A stretch of DNA of 64,000 nucleotides from Mesorhizobium sp. (GTDB taxonomy: Bacteria; Pseudomonadota; Alphaproteobacteria; Rhizobiales; Rhizobiaceae). Positions 3,855 through 28,085 of this stretch are shown here, piece by piece (within the stretch, counting starts at the first letter, position 1; each line of letters begins with the position of its first letter). The notes beneath the pieces were generated by a model. That model was given only the letters and a program-made list of their open reading frames with translations. It made no database searches and was not told the origin of the DNA. A program made the translations under genes and the position numbers. The stretch spans positions 62,001 through 126,000 of the forward strand of contig NZ_JAEULZ010000003.1 of assembly GCF_016793485.1 (NCBI RefSeq), written 5' to 3'.

Positions 3855-5369
3855 TCAGATCGAGTAGAGCTTCGCATATTCCTCGCGAAGCGCGTTCTTC
3901 TGGACCTTGCCCATGGCATTTCTGGGTAATGAATCCTTGACCAGGACACGCTTGGGTATCTTGAATTTCGCCAGGGCGGATTCCAGTTGCGCGCGGACAG
4001 CGCTCTCGTCGACCTCAGATCCGCCGCGGGCGGTGACGACGGCCGTGACTGCCTCGCCAAAGTCCGCATGCGGCAGGCCTATGACGGCCGATTCTCCGAT
4101 CATCGGGAGCGCGTCCAGCGCATTCTCGACTTCTGCGGGGTAAACGTTGAAGCCGCCGGATATGATGAGATCCTTGGCCCGGCCGGAGATGGTGACATAC
4201 CCGTCAGGGTCGATGTAGCCAAGGTCACCGGTAATGAACCAGCCGTCGGCGCGGAACTCCTGTGCGGTCTTTTCGGGCATCCGCCAGTATCCCTTGAACA
4301 CATTCGGCCCCTTCAACTCGATCACGCCGATGCCGCCTTCCGGCAACGCCTTGCCGGTTTCGGGATCAGCGATCCGCACGGACACGCCGGGCAGCGGGAA
4401 ACCTACCGCGCCCGGACGTCGCTCGCCATCATGGGGGTTCGACGTAATCATGTTCGTCTCTGTCATGCCGTAGCGCTCGAGGATCGCGTGGCCCGTGCGC
4501 GCGGTGAACGCGCGGTGCGTCTCGGCCGAAAGCGGCGCCGAGCCCGACACGAAAAGGCGCATGTGACTGGCTGCATCGCGGTCAAAACGCGCATCCGACA
4601 GAAGCCGAGTATAGAAGGTCGGAACCCCCATCATGGTCGTTGCAGCCGGCAACGCCGCCATAACGGCCTCAAGATCGAACCTGGGCATGAAGATCATGGA
4701 CGAGCCCGACAGCATGACCGTGTTCATTGCGACGAAGAGGCCGTGCGTGTGGAAGATCGGCAAGGCGTGAAGAAGGACATCGCCTGCCGTGAACTGCCAT
4801 ATGTCGGCAAGAGCGAGCGCGTTCGACCGCAGGTTTTCGTGCGTGATCATCGCGCCCTTGGAACGCCCCGTCGTGCCGGACGTGTAGAGAATTGCGGCGA
4901 GATCGTCCGCGCCTGCATCTACGGTCTCGAATTGCGAGGGCATGGTTTTGGCCAGCGTCTGCAACGAGCCGTCACCGGCACCATCCAGCGTCTCGATCCG
5001 GGAAGACGAGCCTCCGATAATGGCGCGAAGCGTATCTACAGACCTGGATTCGCAAACCAGTAGCGCTGGCTCGGCATCGGACACGAAATAGGCAACCTCA
5101 GCGGGCGTGTAGGCAGGATTGAGGGGCAGGTAGACCGCTCCTTTGCGCAAGCAGGCGAGATAGAGCCACACGCTGTCGACATGCTTCTCCGTCTGGACTG
5201 CGACGCGGTCGCCCGCCTTGACGCCGAGCGAAGCAAGCGCATTGGCATAGCGTGCCGAAGCATCGAGCATGTCGCCATAACTGAAAACGGCTCCACCTTG
5301 GGTGAACAGGAAGGGGCGCGATGCATCGGTGATGCGATCCGCAATGGTTGCGAACAAATTGCCCTTCAT
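3855..5369 (-). CDS. matB: Malonyl-CoA synthetase (malonate-CoA ligase)
   Basis: 504 aa member of the ANL acyl-CoA synthetase superfamily. It has the AMP-binding loop YTSGTTGRSKG (162-172), the RYGMTETN motif, and the C-terminal PRNAMGKVQK with the adenylation lysine. MatB makes malonyl-CoA from malonate, ATP and CoA in the cytoplasm. The assignment rests on family features plus its place immediately downstream of malonyl-CoA decarboxylase, with which it overlaps by 4 bases (ATGA). This is the rhizobial matAB arrangement. No matC-type dicarboxylate carrier or matR-type regulator sits directly beside it; the divergent exporter at 6878 is of another family. Confidence 0.9.
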   Translation of the reverse strand: MKGNLFATIADRITDASRPFLFTQGGAVFSYGDMLDASARYANALASLGVKAGDRVAVQTEKHVDSVWLYLACLRKGAVYLPLNPAYTPAEVAYFVSDAEPALLVCESRSVDTLRAIIGGSSSRIETLDGAGDGSLQTLAKTMPSQFETVDAGADDLAAILYTSGTTGRSKGAMITHENLRSNALALADIWQFTAGDVLLHALPIFHTHGLFVAMNTVMLSGSSMIFMPRFDLEAVMAALPAATTMMGVPTFYTRLLSDARFDRDAASHMRLFVSGSAPLSAETHRAFTARTGHAILERYGMTETNMITSNPHDGERRPGAVGFPLPGVSVRIADPETGKALPEGGIGVIELKGPNVFKGYWRMPEKTAQEFRADGWFITGDLGYIDPDGYVTISGRAKDLIISGGFNVYPAEVENALDALPMIGESAVIGLPHADFGEAVTAVVTARGGSEVDESAVRAQLESALAKFKIPKRVLVKDSLPRNAMGKVQKNALREEYAKLYSI

Positions 5370-6703
5370 GATTTCCCCCCGGTTGTGTGCGTCGTCTCCA
5401 GCAGCCGCGCGCCGCCAGTTGCCAGGCGACGAACGGATGCCGACACAGCTACAGGCTGGCCTGACGCATAGGCTTCGTGATTACGCTCGATTTCGTCGAG
5501 CTTGTAGAGATAGTTGACCATGATCCCGTGCGACGAAGCCATGCCCGCGTTCCCGGTATTGGCCAGCCAGTTTATGCGCTCCAGACGCGCCCCGTTGCCA
5601 AGATGGAAACGCGCCACGGGATCCAGCAGCCGACCAGCGGCGTCGCGTGGACCGGTCAGATACCATGCAGCCAGGGCCGGAAGCTTTTTCTCCAGGACAG
5701 GCGCGGCCTTCGCATCATGCCACCAGTCCGGCTGAGACAGGGCGTCCATCTCGGAATCTTCGATCTGATGGCGCGACAGCCATCGTGCGAACAGAGGAAC
5801 CGGCGAGAGAGTAACGAAACGGTTGAGCTGCGGCAGGTTGGTGCGCAACTCCTCGACAACCTGCTTGATAAGGAAGTTCCCGAAAGAGATTCCGCGTAGC
5901 CCCGGCTGGCAATCCGAGATCGAATAGAAGATGGCGGTATCGGCTTTTTCGGTCGCTATGATCGTGCGATCGGGGTCGAGAATGGAATCGATCGATGAGG
6001 CCATTTCGCTGGCCAGGGCAACTTCGACGAAGATCAGCGGCTCGTCAGGCAGCCTAGGATGGAAAAAGGCGTAAAGCAGCCTGTCTGACGGATCGATGCG
6101 CCGCCTCAGATCGTCCCAGTCCGCAATCTCGTGCACGGCCTCGTAGCGTATGATCCGTTCGAGGATGGCGGCCGGCGTGCGCCAGTCGATCTTGCGCAAT
6201 TCCAGGAAGCCCCTGTTGAACCACGAGCGGAACAGGTGCTGAAAATCCTTGTCGACAGGATCCAGTTCAGGATGGTCGGGCAGCAGTGCCAGCAGTTCGG
6301 CGCGCATCTGGATAAGTTCCGCGGTTCCCTGCGCCGACTGGTTGAGCATGCGGAAGAGATTCTGCCGACGCGGCTCCGACAGACGATGCAGCGCCTCGGC
6401 TGCGCGTTCGTTCGGGGACGCCACGAACGTGTTTACTGCAGCGACCAGAGGCTTCATGTCCGGACCGAAATCCTGAAGCAGCATGCGAAAGAATGCCAGC
6501 TTTCCCCCGCTGTCCATTGCACGATACCGAAGAAGAATCTCGGATGCTGTGGCAAGCGCGCTCGCCTCGCCGCGGGAGGAAAGCAGGCTATGACAGAGTG
6601 CTGCCGTCTGCTCCATGGGAGTGGCCTGAGAAAGGGAAGTGAAATCCACGAGCGACCGTCCACGTTCGGTGATCGCTGCCAACATGTCGCTCAGGAAAGA
6701 CAT
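5366..6703 (-). CDS. matA: Malonyl-CoA decarboxylase
   Basis: 445 aa protein with the full MCD layout: an all-helical N-terminal half, then a GNAT-like catalytic half containing FFHPRLPDEPLIFVEVAL and the C-terminal FHLGNGARLERINWLA followed by SHGIMVNYLYKL. It converts malonyl-CoA to acetyl-CoA and CO2, so with MatB it lets malonate serve as a carbon source. It is the promoter-proximal gene of the leftward matAB operon. The upstream region (6704-6877) is shared with a divergent transporter and carries two tandem operator-like sites. Confidence 0.93.
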   Translation of the reverse strand: MSFLSDMLAAITERGRSLVDFTSLSQATPMEQTAALCHSLLSSRGEASALATASEILLRYRAMDSGGKLAFFRMLLQDFGPDMKPLVAAVNTFVASPNERAAEALHRLSEPRRQNLFRMLNQSAQGTAELIQMRAELLALLPDHPELDPVDKDFQHLFRSWFNRGFLELRKIDWRTPAAILERIIRYEAVHEIADWDDLRRRIDPSDRLLYAFFHPRLPDEPLIFVEVALASEMASSIDSILDPDRTIIATEKADTAIFYSISDCQPGLRGISFGNFLIKQVVEELRTNLPQLNRFVTLSPVPLFARWLSRHQIEDSEMDALSQPDWWHDAKAAPVLEKKLPALAAWYLTGPRDAAGRLLDPVARFHLGNGARLERINWLANTGNAGMASSHGIMVNYLYKLDEIERNHEAYASGQPVAVSASVRRLATGGARLLETTHTTGGKS

Positions 6704-15091: not shown

Positions 15092-15838
15092 TCAGACGAC
15101 AAGATAGCCACCGTCGATAGGCAACGTTACGCCATTCACGAAACTGGCGGCCGGAGAGGCGAGGAAAACGACCGGCCCTGCGACCTCACGTGGAAGGCCG
15201 AAACGCTTCATGGGGCAGTGCCACTTGAGCCACTCGTCGGTGCTGCCGTCGCCCTTGCCGCCCATCTCGGTATCCATGTATCCGGGCGCGACTGCATTGA
15301 CGCGAATTGAGGAAGGCGCCAGTTCGCGGCACATTGCCTGGGTCAGCGTCTTTACCCCACCCTTGGCCGCCACATAGCCGACATGCGCGAAGCCGCTGGT
15401 GAACGCGACAACGGAAGAGACATTGATAATAGTGCCTCGCATCTCCGCCAGGGCTGGCAGGAAGACCCGCGCCATGTTGAATGCGCCCGTCAGGTGTACC
15501 GCGATGTTGTTGTCCCAGGTTGCTTCTGAGTCCACGTCGCCGATGCGCGCGTTACCGGCGACGCCTGCATTGTTGACGAGTATCGAAAGAAGGCCATGTT
15601 CGCGCTCGACCTTCGCGGCAAAGCTTCTAAGTCCTGGTCTGTCGGTGACGTCGAGCTTCTCGCCCCAGGCAGCATGACCATCACTGACCAACGCGGCGGC
15701 GCTTTCCTGAGCAAGCGTCAGGTCGATGTCCGTGACTATTACCTTCGCGCCCGCTTCGGCGAGACCGCGGGCTATCGCAGCCCCGAGCCCGCGCCCGGCG
15801 CCCGTCACCAGGGCAAGTTGATCGGCAAGCACCTTCAT
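15092..15838 (-). CDS. Short-chain dehydrogenase/reductase
   Basis: 248 aa classical SDR: cofactor motif TGAGRGLG (12-19), NNAG (89-92), catalytic S141/S142, Y155 and K159, and the C-terminal FVNGVTLPIDGGY. The substrate is unknown; the best guess is a sugar or hydroxy acid, by family. It is convergent with kdgF and stands alone. Its upstream 281 bp is shared with the divergent alcohol dehydrogenase gene. Confidence 0.88.
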   Translation of the reverse strand: MKVLADQLALVTGAGRGLGAAIARGLAEAGAKVIVTDIDLTLAQESAAALVSDGHAAWGEKLDVTDRPGLRSFAAKVEREHGLLSILVNNAGVAGNARIGDVDSEATWDNNIAVHLTGAFNMARVFLPALAEMRGTIINVSSVVAFTSGFAHVGYVAAKGGVKTLTQAMCRELAPSSIRVNAVAPGYMDTEMGGKGDGSTDEWLKWHCPMKRFGLPREVAGPVVFLASPAASFVNGVTLPIDGGYLVV

Positions 15839-16119: not shown

Positions 16120-17247
16120 ATGGCGCTTATTTCCTATCTTACGACGATCGAGTTTGGCCCGGGAACACTGTCCACGGTCGATCAGCATCTTAACCAGACC
16201 GGTATTCGCAAACCGCTTCTCATCAGTGACAGGGGCCTCGAGAGAACCGGCCTAGTGGACAGGGTCTCCGCCATGCTCCCAGGCGGTACGGCGACGTTCC
16301 TGGATGTTCCGTCCAATCCGACGGAAGCCGCAACAATGGCCGCGCTTGCCTCGTACCGGGCAAACAATTGCGACGGCATCGTCGCGCTCGGCGGCGGTTC
16401 GCCTATCGATCTCGCCAAGGGTGTCGCCCTGCTCGCGACGCACGAAGGAAATCTGGAGGCTTATGCGGCCATTTACGGCGGGATTCCCAGGATAACGCAG
16501 GCCGTGGCTCCCGTTATAGCGATCGCCACAACCGCCGGCACTGGCGCCGAGGTGGGTCGTGCGGCATTGATCACCTTGGATGACGGTCGCAAGCTTGGCT
16601 TTATCAGCCCACATCTCTTCCCCAAGCGCGCGATCTGCGACCCCGAACTGACGCTGGGCTTGCCCGCTGGATTGACGGCCGCGACTGGCATGGATGCCTT
16701 GTCGCACTGCATCGAGACCTTTCTGTCGCCGCGCTTCAACCCGCCGGCGGAGGCGATCGCGCTGGACGGTGCAGGACGCATATGGCGCAACCTCGAATCC
16801 GTCGTCTCGGATGGAAGCAGGATCGAGGGGCGCACGGAGCTCATGATGGGCTCCCTCCAAGGGGGACTTACCTTCCAGAAGGGCCTCGGCGCGGTGCATG
16901 CGCTGTCGCACGCATTGGGCGGACTCAAGCAGCCGACGCTTCATCACGGAACGCTGAACGCGATCCTGCTTCCGCCTGTCCTTCGCTTCAACGAAAGCGC
17001 ATGCTCCGAAAAGTACGCTCGCCTGAGGAGTGCGATGGGAATTCCACGGGAAACGGACCTAGCCGACGAAATTGCGGCGCTCAACCGCCAAATTGGCATT
17101 CCTGCCGGACTGGCCTCGCTTGGCGTGAAGCCAGACCAACTGGACTGGGTGATCGAACGCGCCCTCCTCGACCACAGCCATCCGACCAACCCTCGCGAGC
17201 CGACAGCCTCCGACTACCGGGATATGCTGAACGTCGTAATGGTCTGA
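16120..17247 (+). CDS. Iron-containing alcohol dehydrogenase (group III)
   Basis: 375 aa. It has the NAD-binding [10 protein letters not shown] (91-100), the TTAGTGAEV loop, and the metal site [10 protein letters not shown] (D192, H196) with GAVHALSH (H260, H264) and HHG (H276). The family interconverts primary alcohols or hydroxy acids and aldehydes. It lies between uronate and beta-amino acid clusters and belongs to neither by overlap. Candidate reactions include 4-hydroxybutyrate or lactaldehyde oxidation; context does not decide. Confidence 0.88.
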
Positions 17248-17329: not shown

Positions 17330-17755
17330 CTACCTGAGCCCTTCGGACAAGAGCGCGGTGGCCCTCTCCCGGGTCGCCTCATCCAGACCGATCTTGCTGC
17401 GCTCGCGCAGATCGAACCGCACTGTTACCGTACGCATCTGTGCATGGAGCACATCATCGAGCGTGCCGCGCATCTCGTGCAGATAGGTGAGCGAGGATGT
17501 TCCGACCTTTTCGACACGGCTGTAGACCGTGACCAGCGTGCCCACGGCGGTCTCGTGCTTGTAGCCGATCTCCATGTGTACGTCGGCCCAGCCGAGGCCG
17601 CCGCCCACATCCTCCTTGCCGGCGATGCGGCCAAGTATCTGGAAACTGGCATCGTCGAACATCGCCACGTAGTGACGGACATTCAGGTGTCCCATCGCAT
17701 CGCACATCCACGGATGGACGATGCCGGCGTAGGTGACGATGCCCCGTTCGCTCAA
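17330..17755 (-). CDS. Hotdog-fold acyl-CoA thioesterase (4HBT type)
   Basis: 141 aa with the DxxGHxN motif (D19, G22, H23, N25) of 4-hydroxybenzoyl-CoA-type thioesterases. It starts with TTG, overlapping the BKACE stop (TTGA). In carnitine degradation the same pairing releases betaine from betainyl-CoA made by BKACE, so here too it most likely hydrolyses the acyl-CoA product of the adjacent cleavage enzyme. The acyl group is not known. Last gene of the leftward five-gene operon. Confidence 0.85.
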   Translation of the reverse strand: MSERGIVTYAGIVHPWMCDAMGHLNVRHYVAMFDDASFQILGRIAGKEDVGGGLGWADVHMEIGYKHETAVGTLVTVYSRVEKVGTSSLTYLHEMRGTLDDVLHAQMRTVTVRFDLRERSKIGLDEATRERATALLSEGLR

Positions 17756-18687
17756 AACCCGACCTCGTTGCCGCCCTTCAGCTTCAACATGTCGCGCGCT
17801 TCCGCAGGTGTCGCAACCTCAAGCGAGAGCTCGCCAAGGATGCGCTTGATCTTCGCCACCTGGTCGGCATTGCTTTTCGCCAGTTGGCCCTTGCCGACAT
17901 AGAGGCTGTCCTCCAGCCCGACGCGCACATTACCGCCCATGATGGCGCCCATGGTGCAAAGCCCCATCTGGTGCTTTCCGGCGGCAAGGATAGACCACAG
18001 ATAGTCTTTTCCGAAAAGCCGGTCGGCGGTGCGGCGCATGTGCATCATATCCTCCGGATCGGGACCGATGCCGCCAAGGATGCCGAAGACAGTCTGCACG
18101 AAGAGCGGAGGCGTCAGCAACTTGCGATCGAGGAAATGCGCAAGCGCGTAAAGGTGGCCGACGTCGTAGCACTCGCATTCGAACTTGGTGCCATAGGCAT
18201 GGCCGACCTCGACGATGACGCGCTCGATCTGGTCGAATGTGTTGGAGACAATGCCCTGCCGCGTGCCTTCGAGATAGGGCTTCTCCCAATCGTATTTCCA
18301 GTTCGACTGCTTCATCGCCGCCTGGCTGAGCACGAAGTTCATCGAACCCATGTTGAGGGAGCAGAGTTCGGGCTTTGCGGCGTGGGCGGCTTCGAGCCTG
18401 CTCTCCAGCGTCATGCCCAGACCGCCACCCGTGGAGATATTCATGACGGCGTCCGTCTGCTGCTTGATGCGCGGCAGGAAATCCATGAACAGTCTGGGGT
18501 CCGGCGACGGCTTACCGGTCTCGGGGTCCCGTGCATGCAGGTGGATCACCGAAGCGCCTGCCTCGGCAGCCCCCACCGCAGCGTCGACGATCTCGGTCGG
18601 CGTGATCGGCAGGTAGGGACTCATCGTCGGCGTGTGGACGGACCCTGTTACGGCGCAGGTGATGATGACTTTCGGCGACGACTGCAT
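17752..18687 (-). CDS. Beta-keto acid cleavage enzyme (BKACE, DUF849)
   Basis: 311 aa TIM barrel. The ITCAVTGS start, the metal-binding IHLHARD (H49, H51) and the catalytic GGNVRVGLED (R255, E259, D260) define the family, known from 3-keto-5-aminohexanoate and dehydrocarnitine cleavage. BKACE condenses a beta-keto acid with acetyl-CoA, giving acetoacetate and a new acyl-CoA. GGGGAG before the ATG at 18687 decides the start over an upstream TTG. It lies in one operon with a beta-amino-acid-type transaminase (its likely supplier) and a thioesterase (its likely consumer). No carnitine dehydrogenase is nearby. Confidence 0.92.
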   Translation of the reverse strand: MQSSPKVIITCAVTGSVHTPTMSPYLPITPTEIVDAAVGAAEAGASVIHLHARDPETGKPSPDPRLFMDFLPRIKQQTDAVMNISTGGGLGMTLESRLEAAHAAKPELCSLNMGSMNFVLSQAAMKQSNWKYDWEKPYLEGTRQGIVSNTFDQIERVIVEVGHAYGTKFECECYDVGHLYALAHFLDRKLLTPPLFVQTVFGILGGIGPDPEDMMHMRRTADRLFGKDYLWSILAAGKHQMGLCTMGAIMGGNVRVGLEDSLYVGKGQLAKSNADQVAKIKRILGELSLEVATPAEARDMLKLKGGNEVGF

Positions 18688-18717
18688 GGTTCTCCCCAAA
18701 TTCCTTTTTATGAAATG

Positions 18718-19827
18718 CTATGGATCGAGTGCGAGACAATCCTCGCCGCGCCAGCCGAGCCGGATTGCCGCCCCCGGCGCGAGCGCGGGCAGCGACGGCG
18801 TGTTGGCGAGTTTGACCACGAACTGGAAATTGCCGGATGTGCGGGCGACGAGGCGGACATGGTCGCCAACATAGACCGACTGGACGATCGTCGCCGGCAG
18901 TTCGTTCGACATCGTCGAACCTTCCGAAACCAGCATCATGCGTTCCGGGCGAACGGAAAGCGTCACCGGCGTGCCGGGTGAAAGAGTGTGCAGCGGAGAG
19001 ACGGCATTCAGCTTCACGCCCTCCCCGGCAAGCGTAACCGTCAGATCGCCATTGGCGGCGACGGCGTCGACGGTCGCGGGCAGTTTGTTGTTCTCGCCGA
19101 TGAAGCTCGCGACGAAACTCGTCTGCGGCCGCTCGTAGAGTTCGTTCGGCGTGGATAGCTGCTGGACTCGCCCCGCGTTGAACACGGCGATGCGGTCCGA
19201 CATGGTCAGCGCCTCGGTCTGGTCGTGCGTGACATAGACGAAGGTCACCCCGAGCCGCGCGTGAATGTCCTTGATCTCGAACTGCATCTGCTCGCGCAAC
19301 TGCTTGTCCAGCGCTCCCAGCGGCTCATCCATGAGGACGAGTTTGGGCTGGAAGATCAGCGCGCGGGCGACAGCGATGCGCTGCTGCTGGCCGCCGGACA
19401 ACTGGTCCGGGCGTCGATTGCCGAGACCGGGCAACTGCACCATGTCGAGGACGCTTTTGACGCGCTCGGCGATCGCTGCCTTGCCGAGCTTTCGCACTTC
19501 CAGCGGAAAGGCGAGATTTTCGGCGACAGTCATGTGCGGGAAAAGTGCGTAATTCTGAAAGACCATGCCGATGCCGCGGCGGTTCGCCGGCACACGATCT
19601 ATGCGGCGGCCGTCGACAAGTATCTCGCCCTCAGTCGGGTCCTCGAAGCCGGCAAGCATCATCAAGGCCGTGGTCTTGCCGGAGCCGGACGGACCGAGCA
19701 GCGTCAGGAATTCGCCGCGCTGGATTTCGAGATCGAGATTCTGGACCGCGAGGACCGCCTCGCCGTAGCGCTTGCTTACGCCCCGGAATTGGACGTGGGT
19801 CGCGTCTTGCGAAGCGGCGGTCGTCAT
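18718..19827 (-). CDS. ABC transporter ATPase, spermidine/putrescine (PotA) type
   Basis: 369 aa. Nucleotide-binding domain with Walker A GPSGSGKTT, signature LSGGQQQR and Walker B LVLMDEPLGALD, followed by a C-terminal TOBE domain. The start at 19827 overlaps the GntR stop (ATGA). The matching binding protein and permeases sit in the divergent operon from 22020, so the transporter is split over two promoters. Importers of this class carry polyamines, opines, betaines or other amino compounds. Confidence 0.92.
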   Translation of the reverse strand: MTTAASQDATHVQFRGVSKRYGEAVLAVQNLDLEIQRGEFLTLLGPSGSGKTTALMMLAGFEDPTEGEILVDGRRIDRVPANRRGIGMVFQNYALFPHMTVAENLAFPLEVRKLGKAAIAERVKSVLDMVQLPGLGNRRPDQLSGGQQQRIAVARALIFQPKLVLMDEPLGALDKQLREQMQFEIKDIHARLGVTFVYVTHDQTEALTMSDRIAVFNAGRVQQLSTPNELYERPQTSFVASFIGENNKLPATVDAVAANGDLTVTLAGEGVKLNAVSPLHTLSPGTPVTLSVRPERMMLVSEGSTMSNELPATIVQSVYVGDHVRLVARTSGNFQFVVKLANTPSLPALAPGAAIRLGWRGEDCLALDP

Positions 19828-20564
19828 TTGGCGGGCGCCCTGGCGGTGATCGGTATACGCCTGCGCCTGGGAGCCGCTCGTGGTTGAACCTGGAGCCCTT
19901 GCGGCGACGCGGCGGCGCGCAGGATAACGTCGGCCGCCTCGGTCAGGTCGGCGACTAGCGCGCGCCGCGCGGCCTGCCCGTCTCCCCGGCGCAGCGCATC
20001 GATGATCTCGTCGTGATGGACGAGGCCCGAAATGTAGGCCGGGCGCACGACGTTGAGGAACGGCCCCGCCCGCAGCCACAGTTTCTCGATCATCTGTTCA
20101 AGCACGGGCGAACGGGCGGCCCGGTAGACGGAAAAGTGGAACCGGCGGTTGACGGTCAGATAGTCGGCCATCACGTTTTCGCTAACACACTCGTGCATCC
20201 GCTCGTTCAGGCGCACCAGTCCGTCGATTTCAGCCTCGGAGATGGTCGTCGCCGCCCACTCTGCCGCGGTGCCCTCGACGTTGCAGCGCACGCGCACAAG
20301 ATCGGATATGCGCGCCACCGTCGCCTCGGGCACGATCACCCCGCGATTGGGATGGTCGAACAAGGCTTCGTCGCTGACCAGTTGCCGAAACGCCTCGCGC
20401 ACCGGCATGGCGCTGGTGCGGAATTTTTCGGCGATCTGTCGGACAACGAGGCGCTGGCCCGGCAGAAAGTCGCCGTTCATCAGCGCCTCCTTCAACCCCG
20501 CATGGACGCGCACATGCGCGGTCTCCCGCGAGGCGCCTGCAGCTCCTGCCCTGCGATCCAGCAT
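19824..20564 (-). CDS. GntR-family (FCD) transcriptional regulator
   Basis: 246 aa. An N-terminal winged helix (LKEALMNGDFLPGQRLVVRQ, then PVREAFRQLVSDEAL) precedes an FCD domain (NRRFHFSVYRAA, HHDEIIDALRRGD). The C-terminal tail is arginine-rich (PRAAPRRRRIP). It sits second in the operon: its start shares one base with the aminotransferase stop (TGATG) and its stop overlaps the ATPase start. It therefore most likely autoregulates and controls both divergent operons through the TTTGATCAAA-type sites at 21897-21992. Confidence 0.9.
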   Translation of the reverse strand: MLDRRAGAAGASRETAHVRVHAGLKEALMNGDFLPGQRLVVRQIAEKFRTSAMPVREAFRQLVSDEALFDHPNRGVIVPEATVARISDLVRVRCNVEGTAAEWAATTISEAEIDGLVRLNERMHECVSENVMADYLTVNRRFHFSVYRAARSPVLEQMIEKLWLRAGPFLNVVRPAYISGLVHHDEIIDALRRGDGQAARRALVADLTEAADVILRAAASPQGLQVQPRAAPRRRRIPITARAPAK

Positions 20565-21898
20565 CAGGCAGCCCGAGACGGCAGCACCTGCCGATTGCTG
20601 GAAAGGAAATCATCGAAGGCAGCAAGGAAGCCCTCGAGTTCCGCGTCGCCGAAGGGCAGCGAGAGCGCCAGCATTCCGCGCGGCGTAACATAGTATCCGC
20701 GCAGCAGCATCTCGACATGCCAGAGAGCGATCAGCGATGGGTCGGCATCGTCGAGCGGCGCCGGTGTGTCGACCGGTCCCCTGACGAAATGCAGGTTCAT
20801 CAGCGAGCCGCAGCCAAGCACGACGCCCTCGACGCCATGCTTCTCCAGCGCAACATTCATTCCCTCGCGCAGCCTGTCGCCGCGCTGGTTGACGGCCTTG
20901 CTCGCTTCCGGCGTCAGCACCTTGGTGAGGCCGGTGAACCCCGCCGCCATGCTCAGGATGTTGTTGTTGAACGTGCCGCCATGGGAGAAGGCGCCGGGCG
21001 ACGCGGGATCGAAACGGTCGATGAGATCGGAGCGACCGCCGAAGCCGCCGAAGCTGGCGCCGCCACCGATATATTTGCCGAGCGTCACGAGATCGGGATG
21101 GACGCCGTGCGCACCGTGCAGACCGCGATAATCGAGACGCGAGGTCATCACTTCATCGAAGATCAGAAGAACGCCGGCCTCGCGCGTCGCCTCGCGCAGG
21201 GCCTGCAGGAATTCGCGTGTCGCCGGGATGCAGCCACCGCCGCCCATCATCGGCTCGACGATGACCGCCGCGAGGTCGCCGGCGTGCTCCCGGATGAGCG
21301 CAACAGCGCCCTCGATGTCATTGTAATCGCCGAAGACGAAGGGGAACGGAAGGTTGAGCGGCGAACCGCCATGCGCAAAGGTCAGCACGCCGCCATGGTA
21401 GCCTTCCCTGAACGCCAGCATTTTGGAACGCCCGGTAATTGCGCGGGCAGCCGAGATGGCCATGATGTTGGCTTCTGTGCCCGAATTGCAGAAACGCACG
21501 CGCTCGATAGCCGGAAAGCGATCGACCACGGCAGCGGCAAGCCGCGCCTCGTAACGGTTCGGCGCGCCCAGCATGATGCCGCCCTGGATGACCTCCACCA
21601 ACGCCGCCGCGATGGTCTTGTCGGAATGGCCATAGAAGCCGGCGCTGTATTCCGAGACGAGATCGACATAGGTATGACCGTCGAGATCGGTAACCCGACA
21701 GCCATCGCCTGAAACGAACGACACGGGAAATGGCCGGTACCAGAGCACGGCTCTCGTGTTGCCTCCCGGCAGCGAAGCCGATGCCTCCTTGTGGCGCGCG
21801 AGGCTCTTCGGATTTGCATCCGTGAACCGCTGCCGAGCCTCCGCGAGCACGGAGTCCAGATTGGCGTTCCGGCGCGTCTCGGCAATTCCCTGCAACAT
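20564..21898 (-). CDS. Class III aminotransferase, beta-amino acid (beta-phenylalanine) type
   Basis: 444 aa PLP enzyme of the glutamate-1-semialdehyde aminomutase branch. SGT (139-141), the FDEV aspartate D248 and the PLP lysine K275 (LGKYIGGG) are present. From memory of the Variovorax beta-phenylalanine aminotransferase and its Mesorhizobium relative, this protein shares their N-terminal RFTDANP, the carboxylate-binding arginine (R49, in NTRAVLWY), the FSHGGTFNNN stretch and the flipping arginine (R407, in TPRGML). I infer a beta-amino acid:2-oxoacid transaminase that yields beta-keto acids. It is the first gene of the operon that also encodes BKACE. Confidence 0.85.
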   Translation of the reverse strand: MLQGIAETRRNANLDSVLAEARQRFTDANPKSLARHKEASASLPGGNTRAVLWYRPFPVSFVSGDGCRVTDLDGHTYVDLVSEYSAGFYGHSDKTIAAALVEVIQGGIMLGAPNRYEARLAAAVVDRFPAIERVRFCNSGTEANIMAISAARAITGRSKMLAFREGYHGGVLTFAHGGSPLNLPFPFVFGDYNDIEGAVALIREHAGDLAAVIVEPMMGGGGCIPATREFLQALREATREAGVLLIFDEVMTSRLDYRGLHGAHGVHPDLVTLGKYIGGGASFGGFGGRSDLIDRFDPASPGAFSHGGTFNNNILSMAAGFTGLTKVLTPEASKAVNQRGDRLREGMNVALEKHGVEGVVLGCGSLMNLHFVRGPVDTPAPLDDADPSLIALWHVEMLLRGYYVTPRGMLALSLPFGDAELEGFLAAFDDFLSSNRQVLPSRAA

Positions 21899-21992
21899 TC
21901 GATCAAATCCTCGGCATCAGGCGAATTTTTTTCAGCCTATCGCGAATAGCTATTGCTTATCAATCCGTTTCGCGCAACAAATTTGATCAAAT
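21897..21992. promoter_or_regulatory. Divergent control region with two TTTGATCAAA-type sites
   Basis: ATTTGATCAAAT at 21981-21992 is a perfect 12-bp palindrome, 27 bp before the binding-protein ATG. ATTCGATCAAAT at 21897-21908 has one mismatch and touches the aminotransferase start codon. One site at each gene start suggests a single regulator, probably the operon's own GntR protein, controlling both directions. Confidence 0.6.
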
Positions 21993-22019
21993 CTACCACA
22001 ACAGAAAAGGGGAACTGGA

Positions 22020-23075
22020 ATGAAGACATACCTGCGAACCATTTCCGCCATGGCGTTGGCCCTCTCGGCATCGACGCTTGTTGCATCCGCTGCAGACCCC
22101 ATAACGGTGGTCGGATGGGGTGGCACCTGGGACAAGGCCTACAAGGACGGGGTCTGGGACAAATACACCGAACAGACGGGCACCCCGATCATCCAGGAGG
22201 AATGGGCCGGCGAAGTCGCGAAGGTACGCGCGCAGGTTCAGGCCGGCAACGTCACCTATGACGTCGTCTCGGTCGAGGCCCCCGCAATGGAGATTGGCTG
22301 CGCCGAAGGACTGTTCTTGCCGCTGACACCAGATGTGACCGGCGATCCCCAGAACTACCTGCCCGGCACCCTGCATGAATGCGGCGTGGCTTCCGACACC
22401 TGGGCCACGATCATGACCTACAACACCAACGTGTTCAAAGACGGTACCGGGCCGAAGACATGGGCCGACTTCTGGGATGTGGAGAAATTCCCCGGCAAGC
22501 GCGGCCTCTATTCCCAGGCTCAGTTCACGCTTGAGAATGCCCTGATGGCCGACGGCGTGAAGGGCGAGGACATGTACAAGGTGCTGAGTACGCCGGAAGG
22601 CGTCGACCGCGCCTTCGCCATGCTCGACAAGCTCAAGCCGAATGTCGTGTGGTGGTCGACGACCACGCAGGGCATACAGAACCTAGACAGCGGCGAAGTG
22701 GTGATGAGCGACGCCTTCAACGCGCGCATCACCAACGAAGTCGTCCAGGAAAAAAAGCCGTACACCATCGTGTGGGACGCCGGCTTCTTCTACGGCACCG
22801 ATTTCTGGGCGGTGGTCAAGGGCGCGCCCCGCGAGAAGGAGGGTGTTGATCTCCTGAAATGGTTCTCGATCCCGGAAAACCAGGCCGGCTTCTCCAAACT
22901 CTACGCCTACGGCACGGGTCGCAAGGAAGCCGCGGCGCTTATACCCGCCGAATGGGCCGCAAACCTGCCGACGTCTGACGAGCACATCAAGTTTGCCACG
23001 GCATACGACAACGACTTCTGGACCGAGAACAAGGAAGCGCTGGAAGAGCGCTTCAAGGCCTGGCAGGCGAAGTAA
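22020..23075 (+). CDS. ABC transporter substrate-binding protein (PotD type)
   Basis: 351 aa. The signal peptide MKTYLRTISAMALALSASTL ends near VASAAD. The mature part is a type II binding protein of the SBP_bac_8/PotD class, with VVGWGGTWDKAYKDGVW at the start and WFSIPENQAGFSKLYAYG late. It binds the substrate in the periplasm for the permeases encoded downstream. AAGGGGAAC precedes the ATG. It is the first gene of the rightward operon. Confidence 0.9.
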   Translation: MKTYLRTISAMALALSASTLVASAADPITVVGWGGTWDKAYKDGVWDKYTEQTGTPIIQEEWAGEVAKVRAQVQAGNVTYDVVSVEAPAMEIGCAEGLFLPLTPDVTGDPQNYLPGTLHECGVASDTWATIMTYNTNVFKDGTGPKTWADFWDVEKFPGKRGLYSQAQFTLENALMADGVKGEDMYKVLSTPEGVDRAFAMLDKLKPNVVWWSTTTQGIQNLDSGEVVMSDAFNARITNEVVQEKKPYTIVWDAGFFYGTDFWAVVKGAPREKEGVDLLKWFSIPENQAGFSKLYAYGTGRKEAAALIPAEWAANLPTSDEHIKFATAYDNDFWTENKEALEERFKAWQAK

Positions 23076-23084
23076 GTCAGATCG

Positions 23085-24302
23085 ATGCCGGTAAAGGCAT
23101 TACCGGCCGGAAAGCATCGGCAAGGCGTGGTTCTCGCCCTGCTGGTGCTTCCTGTTGTCTTGTTCGTCGTCCTCATCTTCCTGTGGCCGGTGGCGCGCTT
23201 CCTCGCGCTGTCGGTCGACAACTCCGACATGTCAGGCAACCTGCCACGCACCATCGTGGCCTTGTCGCAAGACGTACCCGAGAGCGGGCTCCCTTCCGAA
23301 GCGGTGTTTGTCGCGTTGGTGGAGGATCTGGCCGCAGCCAAACGTGCCGGACGGGAGGGCGTGCTGGCCCAACTCGTCAACCAGCGACTCGTCGGTACGC
23401 GTTTCCTGATCATCAAGACCGCCAAGGATGCCGCCGACGGCAAGCTCGATATGCGGCCCGTGCGCGAAAGCTTGATCGATAGACATTCTGGCTGGAGCAA
23501 CCCGGCGCTCTGGCAGGAGCTTTCACGCCAGAAGGGCGCGTTTACGGACTACTATCTGCTGAACAGCGTAGACCTGATGCGCGGCGAGGATAACGCGATA
23601 GCCAGCGTTCCGCCCGATCGCGCCGTTTTCCTCGACGTGCTTCTGCGAACCATATGGATTAGCGCGGTCGTCACCGTGCTTTGCGCGCTGCTCGCCCTGC
23701 CGCTGGCGCAGGCGATCGTCAGCGCGCCGCCAACCTGGTCGCGCCTTATGTTCGCACTCGTGCTGTTCCCGCTGTGGACCTCGCTGCTGGTGCGGACCGT
23801 CATCTGGATCATCGTGCTGCAAAGGAATGGCCCGGTGAATGCCACCCTGATGGGGCTGGGCATCGTCGGCGAGCCGCTCAATCTCGTCTACACGCGCTTC
23901 TCGCTCTATGTCGCCATGGTGCAGGTCCTGCTGCCGATGATGGTGCTGTCCATCGTCGCGGTGATGCGGCGTGTGCCAGCGACTTACATGCGTGCAGCGC
24001 TCTCGCTCGGAGCGTCCTGGCTGACGGCCTGGCGTCGGGTGCAACTGCCGCTGATCCTGCCCGGCATCCTGTCCGGCGGCGCCATCGTCTTCGTCTTCTC
24101 GCTAGGCTACTACATCACGCCGACACTGGTCGGCGGGCCGACCGACCAGATGGTGTCCAGCTACATCGCCTTCTACACCAACAACACGCTGAACTGGGGG
24201 CTGGGCGCGGCGCTGTCGCTGCAACTGCTGCTGATCCTGCTCATGTTCGCCTTCCTCTTCCTGACGGCAAACGCCATCCTGAAACGGAGGACGGCAGCAT
24301 GA
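23085..24302 (+). CDS. ABC transporter permease (PotB type)
   Basis: 405 aa, longer than the usual 280-300 aa. After the first membrane segment (LALLVLPVVLFVVLIFLWPV) there is a periplasmic insert of about 150 residues, then five more segments with the inner-loop EAA-like motif AALSLGASWLTAWRRVQLPL. Such N-terminal inserts are seen in some opine/polyamine-class permeases. The stop overlaps the next permease start (ATGA). Confidence 0.9.
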   Translation: MPVKALPAGKHRQGVVLALLVLPVVLFVVLIFLWPVARFLALSVDNSDMSGNLPRTIVALSQDVPESGLPSEAVFVALVEDLAAAKRAGREGVLAQLVNQRLVGTRFLIIKTAKDAADGKLDMRPVRESLIDRHSGWSNPALWQELSRQKGAFTDYYLLNSVDLMRGEDNAIASVPPDRAVFLDVLLRTIWISAVVTVLCALLALPLAQAIVSAPPTWSRLMFALVLFPLWTSLLVRTVIWIIVLQRNGPVNATLMGLGIVGEPLNLVYTRFSLYVAMVQVLLPMMVLSIVAVMRRVPATYMRAALSLGASWLTAWRRVQLPLILPGILSGGAIVFVFSLGYYITPTLVGGPTDQMVSSYIAFYTNNTLNWGLGAALSLQLLLILLMFAFLFLTANAILKRRTAA

Positions 24303-25108
24303 ACGCCGACGTCTTCCGCAAGTGGCTGATGTATGGCTACTCCGCGCTTTTGCTATCCTTCATCATCCTGCCGCTGCTGATCGTCGTGCCGATGTCGCTG
24401 ACCAGCAGCAATTCACTGGCATTTCCGACGCCCGGCTATTCGCTGCGCTGGTATGAGGAACTCTGGATCGACCAGCGCTGGCCGAACGCGCTGTGGAACT
24501 CGCTGGTCATCGCCCTGTCGACGACGCTGCTCTCCTGCGTGCTCGGCATTCCGGCGGCAATCGGCCTCGCCTGGGGGAACTTCCCCGGCAAGAAGGTGAT
24601 CTATGCGATTATCGCCGCGCCGCTGGTGGTACCGGTCGTCATTGTCGGCGTGGCTGCCTTCTCCTTCTTCGCGACGCTCGGCCTCGTCGGCAGCAAGCTA
24701 TCGATCATCCTGACCCACACCGCCATGGCCGTGCCTGTCATGCTGACAACGGTGGTCGCCAGCCTCTCGACTTTCGACCGCACGCTCGTTCGCGCCGCCG
24801 CGTCGCTCGGCGCCGGCACCATGCGTACCTTTTTCAAGGTCATCCTGCCGCTGATCGCGCCCGGCGTAGTGACCGGAGCGATCGTCGCCTTCATCATCTC
24901 CTTCGACGAAGTCGTCGTGGCGAGCTTCCTGTCGGTCGGCAACGAGCGGACCCTGCCGCGCATGATTTTCTCAGGCGTGCGCGAATCCGTCAGCCCGGCC
25001 ATCGCCGCGGTCGCGGTGCTGCTCATCCTCTTCTCGGCGATATTGCTTGCGCTGATTGGCTGGCTCCAGGTTCGTTCACAGCGCATGCGCATGCGGGTCG
25101 TGGCATGA
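24299..25108 (+). CDS. ABC transporter permease (PotC type)
   Basis: 269 aa with six membrane segments and the EAA-like loop AAASLGAGTMRTFFKVILPL, the ordinary PotC layout. It forms a heterodimer channel with the preceding permease and should be powered by the ATPase encoded at 18718. The stop overlaps the start of the amidohydrolase (ATGA), which ties hydrolysis to import. Confidence 0.92.
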   Translation: MNADVFRKWLMYGYSALLLSFIILPLLIVVPMSLTSSNSLAFPTPGYSLRWYEELWIDQRWPNALWNSLVIALSTTLLSCVLGIPAAIGLAWGNFPGKKVIYAIIAAPLVVPVVIVGVAAFSFFATLGLVGSKLSIILTHTAMAVPVMLTTVVASLSTFDRTLVRAAASLGAGTMRTFFKVILPLIAPGVVTGAIVAFIISFDEVVVASFLSVGNERTLPRMIFSGVRESVSPAIAAVAVLLILFSAILLALIGWLQVRSQRMRMRVVA

Positions 25109-26283
25109 AACTCGTCCCTTCGGTCCTCCAGCTCGAAGGCGAGATGACGGCATGGCGTCGTCATCTCCACGCCAACCCCGAGCTCGGTTTCGAGGAGTTC
25201 GAAACCGCGCGCTTCGTTGCCGACAAGCTGCGCTCATGGGGCATAGAGACTGTGGAAGGCGTTGGCCGCACCGGTGTTGTCGGCACGCTCAGGGGCAGGC
25301 TCGGACCCGGCGAGAGCATCGGCATCCGCGCCGACATGGACGCGCTGCCGATGATTGAGGCACGCAATCTTCCACATGCTTCGAAAGTCCTCGGCAAGAT
25401 GCACGGTTGCGGTCATGACGGCCATACAACAATGCTGCTCGGCGCCGCCCACGCTTTGGCGCATTCTCCCGATTTCGCCGGAACAGTGCACTTCATCTTC
25501 CAGCCTGCCGAAGAGGGTCAGGGTGGCGCTGTAGCCATGCTCGAAGACGGACTGCTGGAGCGTTTCCCTTGCGACGAGGTTTATGCCCTGCACAATTCAG
25601 AGCGGCAGCTCGGCGAGGTCGTTGTTCATCACACCGTGGTGGCGGCCGCTGCGGACCGCTTCGAGATCGCAGTGCGCGGACGTGGCGGCCACGCGGCGAT
25701 GCCTCATCTTGCGAATGACCCGCTGCCGATCGCGGCTCGAATCCTGCTCGACATCGAGGCCCTGCCCGGCCGCCTGACCAATGTCCATTCGCCGGCGATC
25801 GTCACCGTCGGCAGCTTCAAGGGCGGCGAGGCCTTCAACACGATCCCCGACGTCGCCGTGCTGACGGGCACGGTGCGGACCTTCGACCCCGAAGTTCAGT
25901 CCATGATCGAAACCGCGATCAAGCGCATCGCAACCGCCGCTGCCGAAGGTCGGGGCGCAACGGTGGACATCAACTACGAGCGTCCCTTCGCCCCGACTAT
26001 CAACACGCCTGCTCAGGCCGACATCATGGCGCGTGTCGCGACCGAGGTCATGGGCGAAGAACGCGTCACGATCGATCCGCCGCCGGAAATGGGCTCGGAG
26101 GACTTCTGCTTCATGCTGCAGCAGCGACCGGGCTGCTACTTCCTGCTTGGCCAGATCGACGCCGATCACCAGGCTGCCTGCCACGACACGCTTTACGATT
26201 TCAATGACGCCATCCTGCCGATGGGCGCGAGCCTGTGGGTGCGGATGGTCGAACGGCGGCTTGCGCCACGGGACACAGAATAG
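25105..26283 (+). CDS. M20 family amidohydrolase (hippuricase/N-acyl amino acid hydrolase)
   Basis: 392 aa. It has the M20D layout: RADMDALPM, the metal site MHGCGHDGHTTM (C102, H104), the catalytic QPAEEGQGGA (E136/E137), a dimerisation domain with GRGGHAAMPH, and the late MGSEDFCFML. Relatives hydrolyse N-acyl amino acids such as hippurate and indole-acetyl conjugates. It is co-translated with the permease, so it probably deacylates the imported compound, releasing an amine for the transaminase or oxidase. There is no signal peptide, so it is cytoplasmic. Confidence 0.9.
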   Translation: MKLVPSVLQLEGEMTAWRRHLHANPELGFEEFETARFVADKLRSWGIETVEGVGRTGVVGTLRGRLGPGESIGIRADMDALPMIEARNLPHASKVLGKMHGCGHDGHTTMLLGAAHALAHSPDFAGTVHFIFQPAEEGQGGAVAMLEDGLLERFPCDEVYALHNSERQLGEVVVHHTVVAAAADRFEIAVRGRGGHAAMPHLANDPLPIAARILLDIEALPGRLTNVHSPAIVTVGSFKGGEAFNTIPDVAVLTGTVRTFDPEVQSMIETAIKRIATAAAEGRGATVDINYERPFAPTINTPAQADIMARVATEVMGEERVTIDPPPEMGSEDFCFMLQQRPGCYFLLGQIDADHQAACHDTLYDFNDAILPMGASLWVRMVERRLAPRDTE

Positions 26284-26286
26284 GCC

Positions 26287-27720
26287 ATGCGGCTCGCCGA
26301 AAGTGACATTGTCTGGCGCAGTCACTGGCTCCGGCAGGCGTTGCCCGAGGACCCCGACCTAGCGCCACCGCTTGCGGAGACCACGCACGCCGACATCTGC
26401 ATCGTCGGCGGCGGCTACATGGGCCTCTGGACCGCAATCCGGCTGAAGGAACGCAATCCCTCGCTGGATGTCGTGATCATAGAGCGCGACATTTGCGGCG
26501 GCGGCCCCAGCGGGCGCAATTCGGGCATGGTGCTGTCAGCCTGGACGAAGTTCAGCGCGCTGGCGGCCCTGCGCAACGCCGACGACGCACTCAGGATCAT
26601 CAGGGCTTCGCAGGCAGCGATATCGGGCATTGAAGCATTCTGCCAGAAAGAAGGCATCGACGGCTGGTTCGACCGCGTTGGGTGGATATGGGGCGCGACC
26701 TGCCAGGCGCAGGCCGGCGCATGGGACGACGCCCTCAACAAGCTGGACGCCCACGGCTACGTGCCGGCGCGCCGTGTCTCGCGCGACGAAATCGCTGCGA
26801 TGGCCGGCACCTCAAGTCATCTCGCCGGCGCCTTCGATGCCTCGTCGGCGACGGTCCATCCGGGCTTTCTGGTGCGCGGACTGCGGCGAGCAGCGCTGAA
26901 ACGCGGCGTGCGCATCTACGAAAAATCGCCGATGACGCGCTTTTCCCGCAGCGGCAAGCTCAGGGTGGATACTGCAAAGGGCAGCGTTTCCTGCGGTAAG
27001 ATCGTGCTGGCGATGAACGCATGGTCGGGTGCGATTCCCGAACTCGCGCCGGCGATCTTCAACATATCCAGCGACGACGCCATGTCGAAGCCGATGCCGG
27101 AGACGCTGGAGAAGGTCGGCTACCGCCGCGCGCCGCTGATGATCGATTCCCGCGTCTTCGTCGGCGGCTGGTCGGCGACGCGCGACGGCCGCCTCTCGGT
27201 CGGCGTCAGCGGCGGCATCATCGGGCTCGGCGGCATCGTCGACAAGCGTTTCCACGGTCCCTCGCCCCGCGTCGGCGAAATGCGCCGCGTCCTGCGCGAC
27301 GGTTTTCCGGCGCTGGCAAACTTCGATCTGGAAACCTCCTGGAACGGCCCCATCGATCGCACGGTGAGCGGACTGCCGCTGTTCGGCACCCTGCCCGGCA
27401 ATCGCGACATCGCCTACGGCTACGGCTTCTCCGGCAACGGTACGACGATGGCTTATCTCGGCGGCCAGATCCTCAGCCAGATATTGACGGGCAGCGAGTC
27501 CGACCTGACCGACTCCGCGCTCGTGCGCCCGGTGACCCGCGGCTTCCCGCCGGAGCCGTTCCGCTTCGTCGGCGCTCATTTCGTGCGCGGCGCGGTGCGC
27601 AGGCGCGACGACCTGGAACATGCCGGCCGCAAGCCGGACGGCCTTACCAGATGGCTTGCCGGCCTCGCGCCATCGGGCGTTACCCCATCGAAGGCAAACC
27701 GGCGCGGCGCAAAAGGATGA
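26287..27720 (+). CDS. FAD-dependent amine/amino acid oxidase (DAO family, PuuB-like)
   Basis: 477 aa. The FAD-binding Rossmann motif ADICIVGGGYMGLWTA sits at 36-50, with CGGGPSGRNSGMVL (typical of gamma-glutamylputrescine oxidase relatives) and the C-terminal AYGYGFSGNG. It oxidises a C-N bond with release of aldehyde or keto product, ammonia and peroxide, or passes electrons on. The substrate is unknown. It follows the amidohydrolase by 3 bases. Confidence 0.88.
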   Translation: MRLAESDIVWRSHWLRQALPEDPDLAPPLAETTHADICIVGGGYMGLWTAIRLKERNPSLDVVIIERDICGGGPSGRNSGMVLSAWTKFSALAALRNADDALRIIRASQAAISGIEAFCQKEGIDGWFDRVGWIWGATCQAQAGAWDDALNKLDAHGYVPARRVSRDEIAAMAGTSSHLAGAFDASSATVHPGFLVRGLRRAALKRGVRIYEKSPMTRFSRSGKLRVDTAKGSVSCGKIVLAMNAWSGAIPELAPAIFNISSDDAMSKPMPETLEKVGYRRAPLMIDSRVFVGGWSATRDGRLSVGVSGGIIGLGGIVDKRFHGPSPRVGEMRRVLRDGFPALANFDLETSWNGPIDRTVSGLPLFGTLPGNRDIAYGYGFSGNGTTMAYLGGQILSQILTGSESDLTDSALVRPVTRGFPPEPFRFVGAHFVRGAVRRRDDLEHAGRKPDGLTRWLAGLAPSGVTPSKANRRGAKG

Positions 27721-27722
27721 CC

Positions 27723-28085
27723 ATGTCCAAGGCAAAAATCTTCAAGCACAGTGAACTGACGTTGAAGCCTTCGGTGACGCCGACCGGTACGTCGTCAATC
27801 GCACGCGTCATCAACGGCGAGATCAGCCGGCACATGGGCGGCGGCATCGAATATCTCGAGAACACCACCATCGACTGGACCGTGACCTATGACGAGGTGC
27901 TCTTCATCCACGAGGGCACGCTGACCATCGAACTCGACGGTGTCCAGCACAAGTGCACGCCCGGCGACATCGTCTGGCTGCCAAACGGAACCCACCTGAA
28001 ATACATAGCCAAGGAGCGCACCGGATATTTCTATGCGCTCTACCCCTTCGACTGGGCGGCGCGGCAGGGGACCGTCGAGCCGTAA
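27723..28085 (+). CDS. Cupin-domain protein
   Basis: 120 aa, single cupin barrel (VLFIHEGTLTIELDG, then CTPGDIVWLPNGTHLKY), related to EutQ-like cupins. AAGGA six bases before the ATG at 27723 favours this start over one at 27717 that overlaps the oxidase stop. The function is not known. Small cupins are common helpers at the end of amine-catabolic operons. Metal ligands are partly atypical: the first HxH motif is reduced to a single His. Confidence 0.8.
   Translation: MSKAKIFKHSELTLKPSVTPTGTSSIARVINGEISRHMGGGIEYLENTTIDWTVTYDEVLFIHEGTLTIELDGVQHKCTPGDIVWLPNGTHLKYIAKERTGYFYALYPFDWAARQGTVEP

Follow-up and report, generated by a model that had tools for sequence, protein, structure and literature searches.

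A conserved gene module in Mesorhizobium that pairs a predicted beta-amino acid aminotransferase with a beta-keto acid cleavage enzyme

Whether a bacterial aminotransferase hands its beta-keto acid product to a beta-keto acid cleavage enzyme (BKACE) is the question raised by two divergent gene sets in the genome of a Mesorhizobium sp. (5.2 Mb, 52 contigs). Both lie in a 64,000-nucleotide stretch of contig NZ_JAEULZ010000003.1, here called the window (G000:C44:62001-126000), for which an initial annotation had proposed the import, deacylation, transamination and BKACE cleavage of N-acyl-beta-amino acids. Beta-transaminases are under study as catalysts for the synthesis of drug building blocks, and the bacterial fate of the unstable beta-keto acid has been called uncertain (PMC6150868). 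The window cluster offers a concrete answer, in which BKACE would capture the beta-keto acid as acetoacetate and an acyl-CoA before decarboxylation. The module is real and conserved, an assembly of known families in a new order, and its probable function is the co-regulated breakdown of beta-amino acids taken up in N-acylated form (or as a related amide), with the transaminase-to-BKACE step at the core; deacylation is proposed with less confidence than this core, and confidence in any named substrate is low.

Recurrence of the aminotransferase-BKACE pair

The genome-neighbourhood search that the initial annotation had suggested for transaminase plus BKACE pairs returned a recurrent association, with a BKACE gene within 5 kb of a homologous aminotransferase gene at 14 of 104 loci against an expectation of about 0.8 calculated from genome size and the copy number of BKACE. 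Close aminotransferases (E up to 1e-90) occurred in 33 genomes of an order set (n = 249), and BKACE lay within 5 kb of 6 of the 37 matches (0.43 expected; G000, which is the window itself, G247, G228, G157, G004 and G230), at a BKACE threshold (E up to 0.001) that counts fragments and raises the expectation. In a class set (n = 385, the window's own genome included), 61 genomes held a close aminotransferase and 8 of 67 matches had a BKACE within this distance at a threshold of E up to 1e-40 (0.38 expected; G412, G585, G509, G369, G318, G520 twice, and G425, the window's own pair being left out). These match numbers are lower bounds, at most 6 (order) or 4 (class) first-look candidates having been scored per genome. 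A further pair, in G308, is separated by 5.2 kb, which places it outside the 5-kb count and inside the 21 linked loci compared below under a 6-kb limit. The Poisson tails (6e-6 for the order set, 7e-9 for the class set) are computed over loci of which kin are not independent, and the five tree positions described below give 1e-3 when taken alone. Named carriers of the pair include Mesorhizobium mediterraneum USDA 3392, Mesorhizobium sp. YM1C-6-2, Rhizobiaceae and Dongia metagenome-assembled genomes, and Rhodospirillaceae bacterium R-7; G585 and L080 are one contig.

The complete window gene set recurs in the same order in L077 (Mesorhizobium mediterraneum) and L075 (Mesorhizobium sp. YM1C-6-2), and in L035 with PotA at a different place, and for this reason the set is not a matter of chance. 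A contig scan that started from BKACE alone (best 80 of 513 relatives kept) placed an aminotransferase beside BKACE at 10 of the 12 loci with at least 71% identity (exceptions, L081 and L084) and at none of the 68 loci below 71%, several of which are on short contigs and two of which have a remote aminotransferase (27%) at 4-6 kb, left out of the count.

On the aminotransferase tree (113 rows, after L214, L154, L070 and L061 were dropped from 117), the BKACE label appeared at five places as drawn, namely a 15-row clade (14 rows labelled), the trios L045/L083/L157 and L158-L160, and the single rows L040 and L055; the origin count given by the tree tool ignored 88 unlabelled rows. The 15-row clade carries mostly the window type of BKACE, and its members L036 and L156 carry a distant BKACE about 36% identical to the window's. 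Judged from the tree, one enzyme has given way in this clade to a remote relative from its own family without loss of the pairing, as a functional link would predict. A gamma-glutamyltranspeptidase gene was seen near the distant-type pairs of L036, L055 and L156, and not near that of L040.

Residues of the core enzymes

The window aminotransferase falls with MesAT (49.1% identical) and VpAT (48.6%) in both the identity comparison and the tree. Equivalents of all six VpAT residues checked (R41, V43, E75, Y76, K267 and R398) are present, with K267 taken by us to be the catalytic Lys and the role of R398 likewise assumed. Within the VpAT-type enzyme, R41 holds the substrate carboxylate, V43 and Y76 hold the ring and E75 supports R41 (PMC9850050). 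By kinship and residues, the window enzyme is a predicted beta-transaminase of the MesAT/VpAT group that keeps the substrate-binding residues.

The two enzymes could also act in the reverse order. One variant lysine fermentation uses a class-III transaminase (Kat) and a BKACE (Kce) in a single route, with the transaminase gene adjoining lysine-fermentation genes including Kce, and there Kat acts after Kce (PMC3149608); in a comparable order, the window BKACE would act first and the aminotransferase would take the resulting beta-aminoacyl-CoA. Kat, however, needs a CoA thioester, does not use free beta-amino acids and is 24% identical to MesAT (PMC3149608), whereas the window enzyme belongs with MesAT and VpAT and keeps the carboxylate-binding Arg, and Glu14 of Kce, which binds the amine of KAH, aligns with a Val (Val21) in the window BKACE. 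This order was rejected on the aminotransferase group and residues, with the distance to Kat taken from the published MesAT comparison, and we consider it highly improbable.

The window BKACE shares 69% identity with 3e02, a protein that by its printed sequence is the one found at L086 in Paraburkholderia xenovorans LB400. In the alignment the window protein keeps equivalents of Kce H46, H48, S82, E143, R226, E230 and D231, plus Tyr145. The Kce residues (S/T at 82) presumably fill metal, carboxylate and catalytic roles, and the D-x-x-G-H-x-N carried by the neighbouring thioesterase (as DAMGHLN) is what we take to be its catalytic motif. Tyr145 has been described as catalytic in BKACE (PMC12871164). 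At 56% identity, the next comparison is BKACE15 of Paracoccus denitrificans (8rio/8rip), for which beta-ketohexanoate, beta-ketopentanoate, 3,5-dioxohexanoate and 5-hydroxy-beta-ketohexanoate are confirmed substrates (PMC11961710), and BKACEs are described as promiscuous, with benzoylacetate among the substrates of one group (PMC4922564). The window protein passes the cut-off of NF053538 (3,5-dioxohexanoate:acetyl-CoA acetone transferase; Table 1) and scores 226 bits, below the cut-off of 382, on a second NCBIfam equivalog; we treat the NF053538 name as a subfamily label and not as the biological substrate. Val or Ile at the Glu14 position does not split BKACEs (8 Val and 7 Ile among 15 aminotransferase-linked proteins versus 9 Val and 61 Ile among 70 unlinked), and therefore no substrate claim is made from that residue. 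Other BKACE columns do separate linked from unlinked proteins (e.g., positions 151, 157 and 217).

A carnitine enzyme was rejected as the first choice for the window BKACE, a BKACE beside a carnitine-dehydrogenase-like gene being located at G000:C32 (by eye), and no carnitine dehydrogenase was found by family profile scans among the ten scanned operon proteins. That locus (L072, 2306-4374) holds a third BKACE with a GlxA/AraC-type regulator before it and the carnitine-dehydrogenase-like gene after it (by eye), and this BKACE likely belongs to the carnitine pathway.

Divergent operons and shared palindromes

Transcription of the minus-strand genes would run in the order aminotransferase, GntR/FCD regulator, PotA, BKACE and thioesterase, diverging from a plus-strand series of binding protein, PotB, PotC, M20 amidohydrolase, FAD oxidase and cupin (Table 1). 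Open reading frame coordinates give overlaps of 1 nt for aminotransferase/GntR and of 4 nt each for GntR/PotA, BKACE/thioesterase, PotB/PotC and PotC/M20, and since neighbouring genes overlap or nearly touch, each gene set reads as a single operon. Family profile scans (position and eye for PotC) bore out the gene set of the initial annotation, as the coordinates did its gene overlaps, at five junctions of 1-4 nt. Its two divergent operons stand in amended form: the GntR/FCD gene (19824-20564) had been missed, and the importer is split, with PotA on the minus-strand operon and the rest on the plus-strand operon. Just beyond the thioesterase end of the cluster lie two dehydrogenase genes assigned by eye, one of the SDR family (15092-15838) and one for an iron-type alcohol dehydrogenase (16120-17247).

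Table 1. Genes and palindromes of the window cluster, with family evidence (scores in bits)
Feature	Position	Strand	Evidence or remark
Hotdog thioesterase (4HBT_2)	17330..17755	-	4HBT_2, 50 vs cut-off 25.5; TTG start; 4-nt overlap with BKACE stop
BKACE	17752..18699	-	PF05853, 347 vs 24.8; NCBIfam NF053538, 515 vs 430; first TTG 18699, ATG 18687
PotA-type ABC ATPase	18718..19827	-	ATG at 19827; family profile scan
GntR/FCD regulator	19824..20564	-	Family profile scan; between aminotransferase and PotA
Class-III beta-amino acid aminotransferase (predicted), MesAT/VpAT group	20564..21898	-	phmmer, 437-438 to the solved beta-transaminases 6iz9, 2yku and 4ao9
Palindrome box 1, ATTCGATCAAAT (1 mismatch)	21897..21908		Overlaps aminotransferase start
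Palindrome box 2, ATTTGATCAAAT (exact)	21981..21992		Upstream of binding-protein gene
Periplasmic binding protein (SBP_bac_8)	22020..23075	+	Family profile scan
PotB/PotH-type permease	23085..24302	+	Family profile scan
PotC-type permease	24299..25108	+	Family by position and by eye; start from open reading frame translation
M20 amidohydrolase	25105..26283	+	TIGR01891, 340 vs cut-off 154
DAO-family FAD oxidase	26287..27720	+	TIGR03329-like, 450, under its cut-off of 633
Small EutQ-type cupin	27723..28085	+	Family profile scan

The 121-bp gap between the aminotransferase and binding-protein genes is bracketed by ATTCGATCAAAT (21897) and ATTTGATCAAAT (21981). A palindrome pair (up to 2 mismatches) is also present in L077, L075, L073, L074, L078, L035, L080, L155 and L036, with one box in L153, and an alignment of eight such gaps places 18 of the 22 invariant columns inside the boxes. 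Across nine genomes, chosen because they hold the cluster with boxes, exact ATTTGATCAAAT occurs at 10 sites (about 0.03 sites per genome expected by chance), 8 of which precede this aminotransferase (one each in eight genomes) and 2 of which precede another BKACE operon; the ninth genome, G631, has no exact copy and carries one box with 1 mismatch and one with 2 (L073). Further boxes (1 and 2 mismatches) stand just before the gamma-glutamyltranspeptidase gene of L036. Judged by the boxes, the two operons are probably co-regulated and the window GntR/FCD is the likely binder of both palindromes (21897 and 21981); the conserved palindrome on either side of a shared promoter would speak against the operons being not co-induced.

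Both ATTTGATCAAAT sites that fall outside the window locus in its own genome directly precede a HyuB-HyuA-ABC transporter-GntR-BKACE operon on contig 46, the GntR of which is 57% identical to that of the window, an arrangement suggestive of another amide-opening route into BKACE, governed by a related regulator. The contig 46 locus (L222, 8692-19003; G000:C46:83191-93502) consists of HyuB, HyuA and a ribose-type ABC importer (all by eye), GntR and a distant-type BKACE, and lacks an aminotransferase.

From the comparative evidence, the residues and the shared promoter with its conserved palindrome, the hand-over from transaminase to BKACE that had been proposed for this cluster is well supported. 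Several observations weigh against it. BKACE is missing within 5 kb of 90 of the 104 aminotransferase matches, which means that the aminotransferase family at large also has other settings, and NCBIfam names the window BKACE for 3,5-dioxohexanoate. The tree test is compatible with a single origin of the pairing followed by losses, the deep forks being weak. At the position of the catalytic Tyr145, the alignment shows Phe in the distant BKACEs of the L036, L040, L055 and L156 pairs. Phe also stands there in BsfD, which is described as having a different chemistry without the standard cleavage (PMC12871164). No palindrome was found in nine scanned loci with a related aminotransferase (L045, L083, L157, L037, L156, L040, L055, L158 and L160). 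Within the window alone the palindrome count is insignificant (2 with up to 2 mismatches; shuffle mean, 0.96; at least 2 in 23 of 100 shuffles), and the palindrome argument therefore rests on place, conservation and genome-wide exclusiveness. Lastly, the pair of L158-L160 sits with MttB and a DAO-GcvT (dimethylglycine-dehydrogenase-like) protein, and in L158 also with an M24 protein (L158 by Pfam, L160 by tblastn, L159 by eye), which suggests N-methylated substrates there.

The same neighbourhood could arise without a shared pathway if the aminotransferase had an omega-amine as its substrate and BKACE served some other beta-keto acid (dehydrocarnitine, ketodeoxyribonate or a polyketide-like acid). 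The promiscuity of BKACEs (PMC4922564), the 3,5-dioxohexanoate label and the two dehydrogenase genes just outside the operon would fit this, but a pairing well above chance, the exchange of one partner and the shared boxes argue otherwise, as do the BKACE beside a carnitine-dehydrogenase-like gene elsewhere in the genome (by eye) and the lack of an SDR among the operon proteins scanned with family profiles, and we regard it as improbable.

Front end, accessory genes and known systems

In the proposed pathway, the importer formed by the binding protein, PotA, PotB and PotC would take up an N-acyl beta-amino acid (or related amide) and the M20 amidohydrolase would strip the acyl group. The aminotransferase would then move the beta-amino group to 2-oxoglutarate or pyruvate, leaving a free beta-keto acid with a side chain that is probably uncharged (aliphatic or aromatic), and BKACE with acetyl-CoA would cleave it before CO2 is lost. 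The products would be acetoacetate and an acyl-CoA with two carbons fewer than the beta-keto acid; the hotdog thioesterase would then split this acyl-CoA into free acid and CoA. GntR/FCD, bound at the pair of ATTTGATCAAAT boxes on either side of the shared promoter, would control both operons, and the oxidase and cupin may provide an accessory step, either N-dealkylation or a second, oxidative entry to the same beta-keto acid.

Solved relatives of the SBP_bac_8 protein include polyamine, gamma-aminobutyrate and opine/mannopine binders (depositors' names), and a single ligand was rejected, the sequence matches being too mixed to name one. The M20 protein, whose solved relatives include the IAA-amino acid hydrolase ILL2 and an N-alpha-acyl-glutamine aminoacylase, reaches the TIGR01891 subfamily score (Table 1) and is by family a predicted N-acyl amino acid hydrolase. 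M20 genes lie near the pair in the window, L035, L073, L075 and L077, and other loci carry different amide hydrolases: AAT/C45-type proteins in L080, L153 and L155 (one L153 copy matches Pfam AAT; the two L155 copies match nothing in Pfam at E up to 1e-10), a gamma-glutamyltranspeptidase in L036 together with a penicillin acylase whose gene comes right after that of GntR, a gamma-glutamyltranspeptidase in L055, and a gamma-glutamyltranspeptidase with an amidase in L156. These unrelated families together occur in 11 of 21 BKACE-linked versus 6 of 87 unlinked loci (6-kb limit; L214, L154, L070, L061, L082, L159 and L076 dropped as duplicates, near-copies or truncated), a contrast that is biased, the families having been chosen from BKACE-linked loci, of which several are close kin. 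Also counting against the step, L074 and L078 keep the aminotransferase, GntR, BKACE, thioesterase and oxidase but lack both the Pot importer and M20. Deacylation is thus dispensable and belongs to the front end, not the core. The deacylation step of the initial annotation thus receives indirect support from the recurrence of different amide hydrolases near the pair, set against the absence of M20 in L074 and L078.

Of the 87 unlinked loci, 6 have a phosphotriesterase-family gene adjoining the aminotransferase, as do L158 and L159 (L159 by eye). In L041, L042, L046, L058, L192 and L202 it lies 0-767 bp from the beta-aminotransferase with no BKACE nearby. PTER, a mammalian member of the family, hydrolyses N-acetyl-beta-alanine (PMC13311154), and the genes of these six loci are candidates for bacterial N-acetyl-beta-amino acid hydrolases.

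The route first proposed gave the oxidase and cupin no role, yet they are about as frequent in the linked loci (10 of 21 and 9 of 21, versus 0 of 87 and 1 of 87 unlinked) as the thioesterase (10 of 21) and the importer genes (11 of 21). The nearest solved relatives of the oxidase are sarcosine and glycine oxidases, remote at E ~1e-9, and that of the cupin is EutQ. In our view both are part of the pathway and would either take off an N-alkyl group or oxidise those beta-amino acids that the transaminase cannot accept. Under the first option carried further, the substrate would be an N-methyl or N-alkyl beta-amino acid or a betaine, dealkylated by the DAO oxidase before the aminotransferase and BKACE act, with M20 as an accessory. 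Besides the frequencies and the sarcosine and glycine oxidase relatives, this would account for L158-L160, with their MttB and DAO-GcvT dehydrogenase beside the pair (M24 also in L158), and for L074 and L078, in which M20 is absent and the gene diverging from the aminotransferase on the far side of the boxes is that of the oxidase. It leaves the recurring amide hydrolases unexplained, however, and the oxidase family is broad, its solved relatives remote and its NCBIfam score under the cut-off; we hold this to be a possibility, if an unlikely one.

A long shot beyond the preferred module of N-acylated beta-amino acid degradation is that the cluster might represent an Alphaproteobacterial hub for such compounds under GntR/ATTTGATCAAAT control. 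Its beta-transaminase and BKACE would form the core, its deacylase would be swapped by lineage, and the oxidase and cupin would be a new beta-amino acid oxidase and an imine/enamine-hydrolysing cupin that feed the transaminase's leftover enantiomer into the same beta-keto acid pool.

To our knowledge, a hand-over from transaminase to BKACE is known only from an engineered system. No natural transaminase-to-BKACE route was found in the open-access literature, a search that the 2014 BKACE survey of Bastard et al. stands outside. The earlier statement that the known routes to BKACE begin with carnitine or lysine fermentation proved too narrow, given a deoxyribonate route with genetic support (PMC6365646), an engineered beta-alanine transaminase and BKACE pair that supports growth in Escherichia coli (PMC11961710), the roles proposed for BKACE with beta-ketoadipate (PMC6449761, PMC8963497) and the lysine fermentation in which Kat acts after Kce (PMC3149608).

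Each known system shares part of the proposed scheme. L-carnitine degradation includes a thioesterase step. As in the window scheme, its BKACE takes a free beta-keto acid and the resulting acyl-CoA is opened afterwards, betaine being released from betainyl-CoA, but the beta-keto acid comes from carnitine dehydrogenase and not from a transaminase (PMC12482172). Oxidative deoxyribonate catabolism is alike in the proposed BKACE cleavage of a free beta-keto acid to acetoacetate and acyl-CoA, with the acid released, and differs in that an SDR dehydrogenase makes the beta-keto acid from a sugar acid (PMC6365646). The beta-alanine:pyruvate transaminase and BKACE module of the CORE cycle also passes a transaminase product to BKACE, but is described as synthetic, converts beta-alanine to formyl-CoA and uses another transaminase without a natural cluster (PMC11961710). 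Beta-phenylalanine use in Paraburkholderia likewise draws its beta-keto acid from a transaminase; there the product decarboxylates to acetophenone, whose further metabolism is called uncertain, and the available part of that report mentions no BKACE (PMC6150868).

If the proposed pathway is true, it would add a natural entry route to BKACE, the palindrome together with the aminotransferase-BKACE pair would be a genomic marker for beta-amino acid degraders, and the cluster would point to enzymes of unknown substrate (oxidase, cupin and the different amide hydrolases). At the window edge (1-3585 and 3855-6703), another hydantoinase A/B pair adjoins malonyl-CoA synthetase-like and malonyl-CoA decarboxylase-like genes (by eye).

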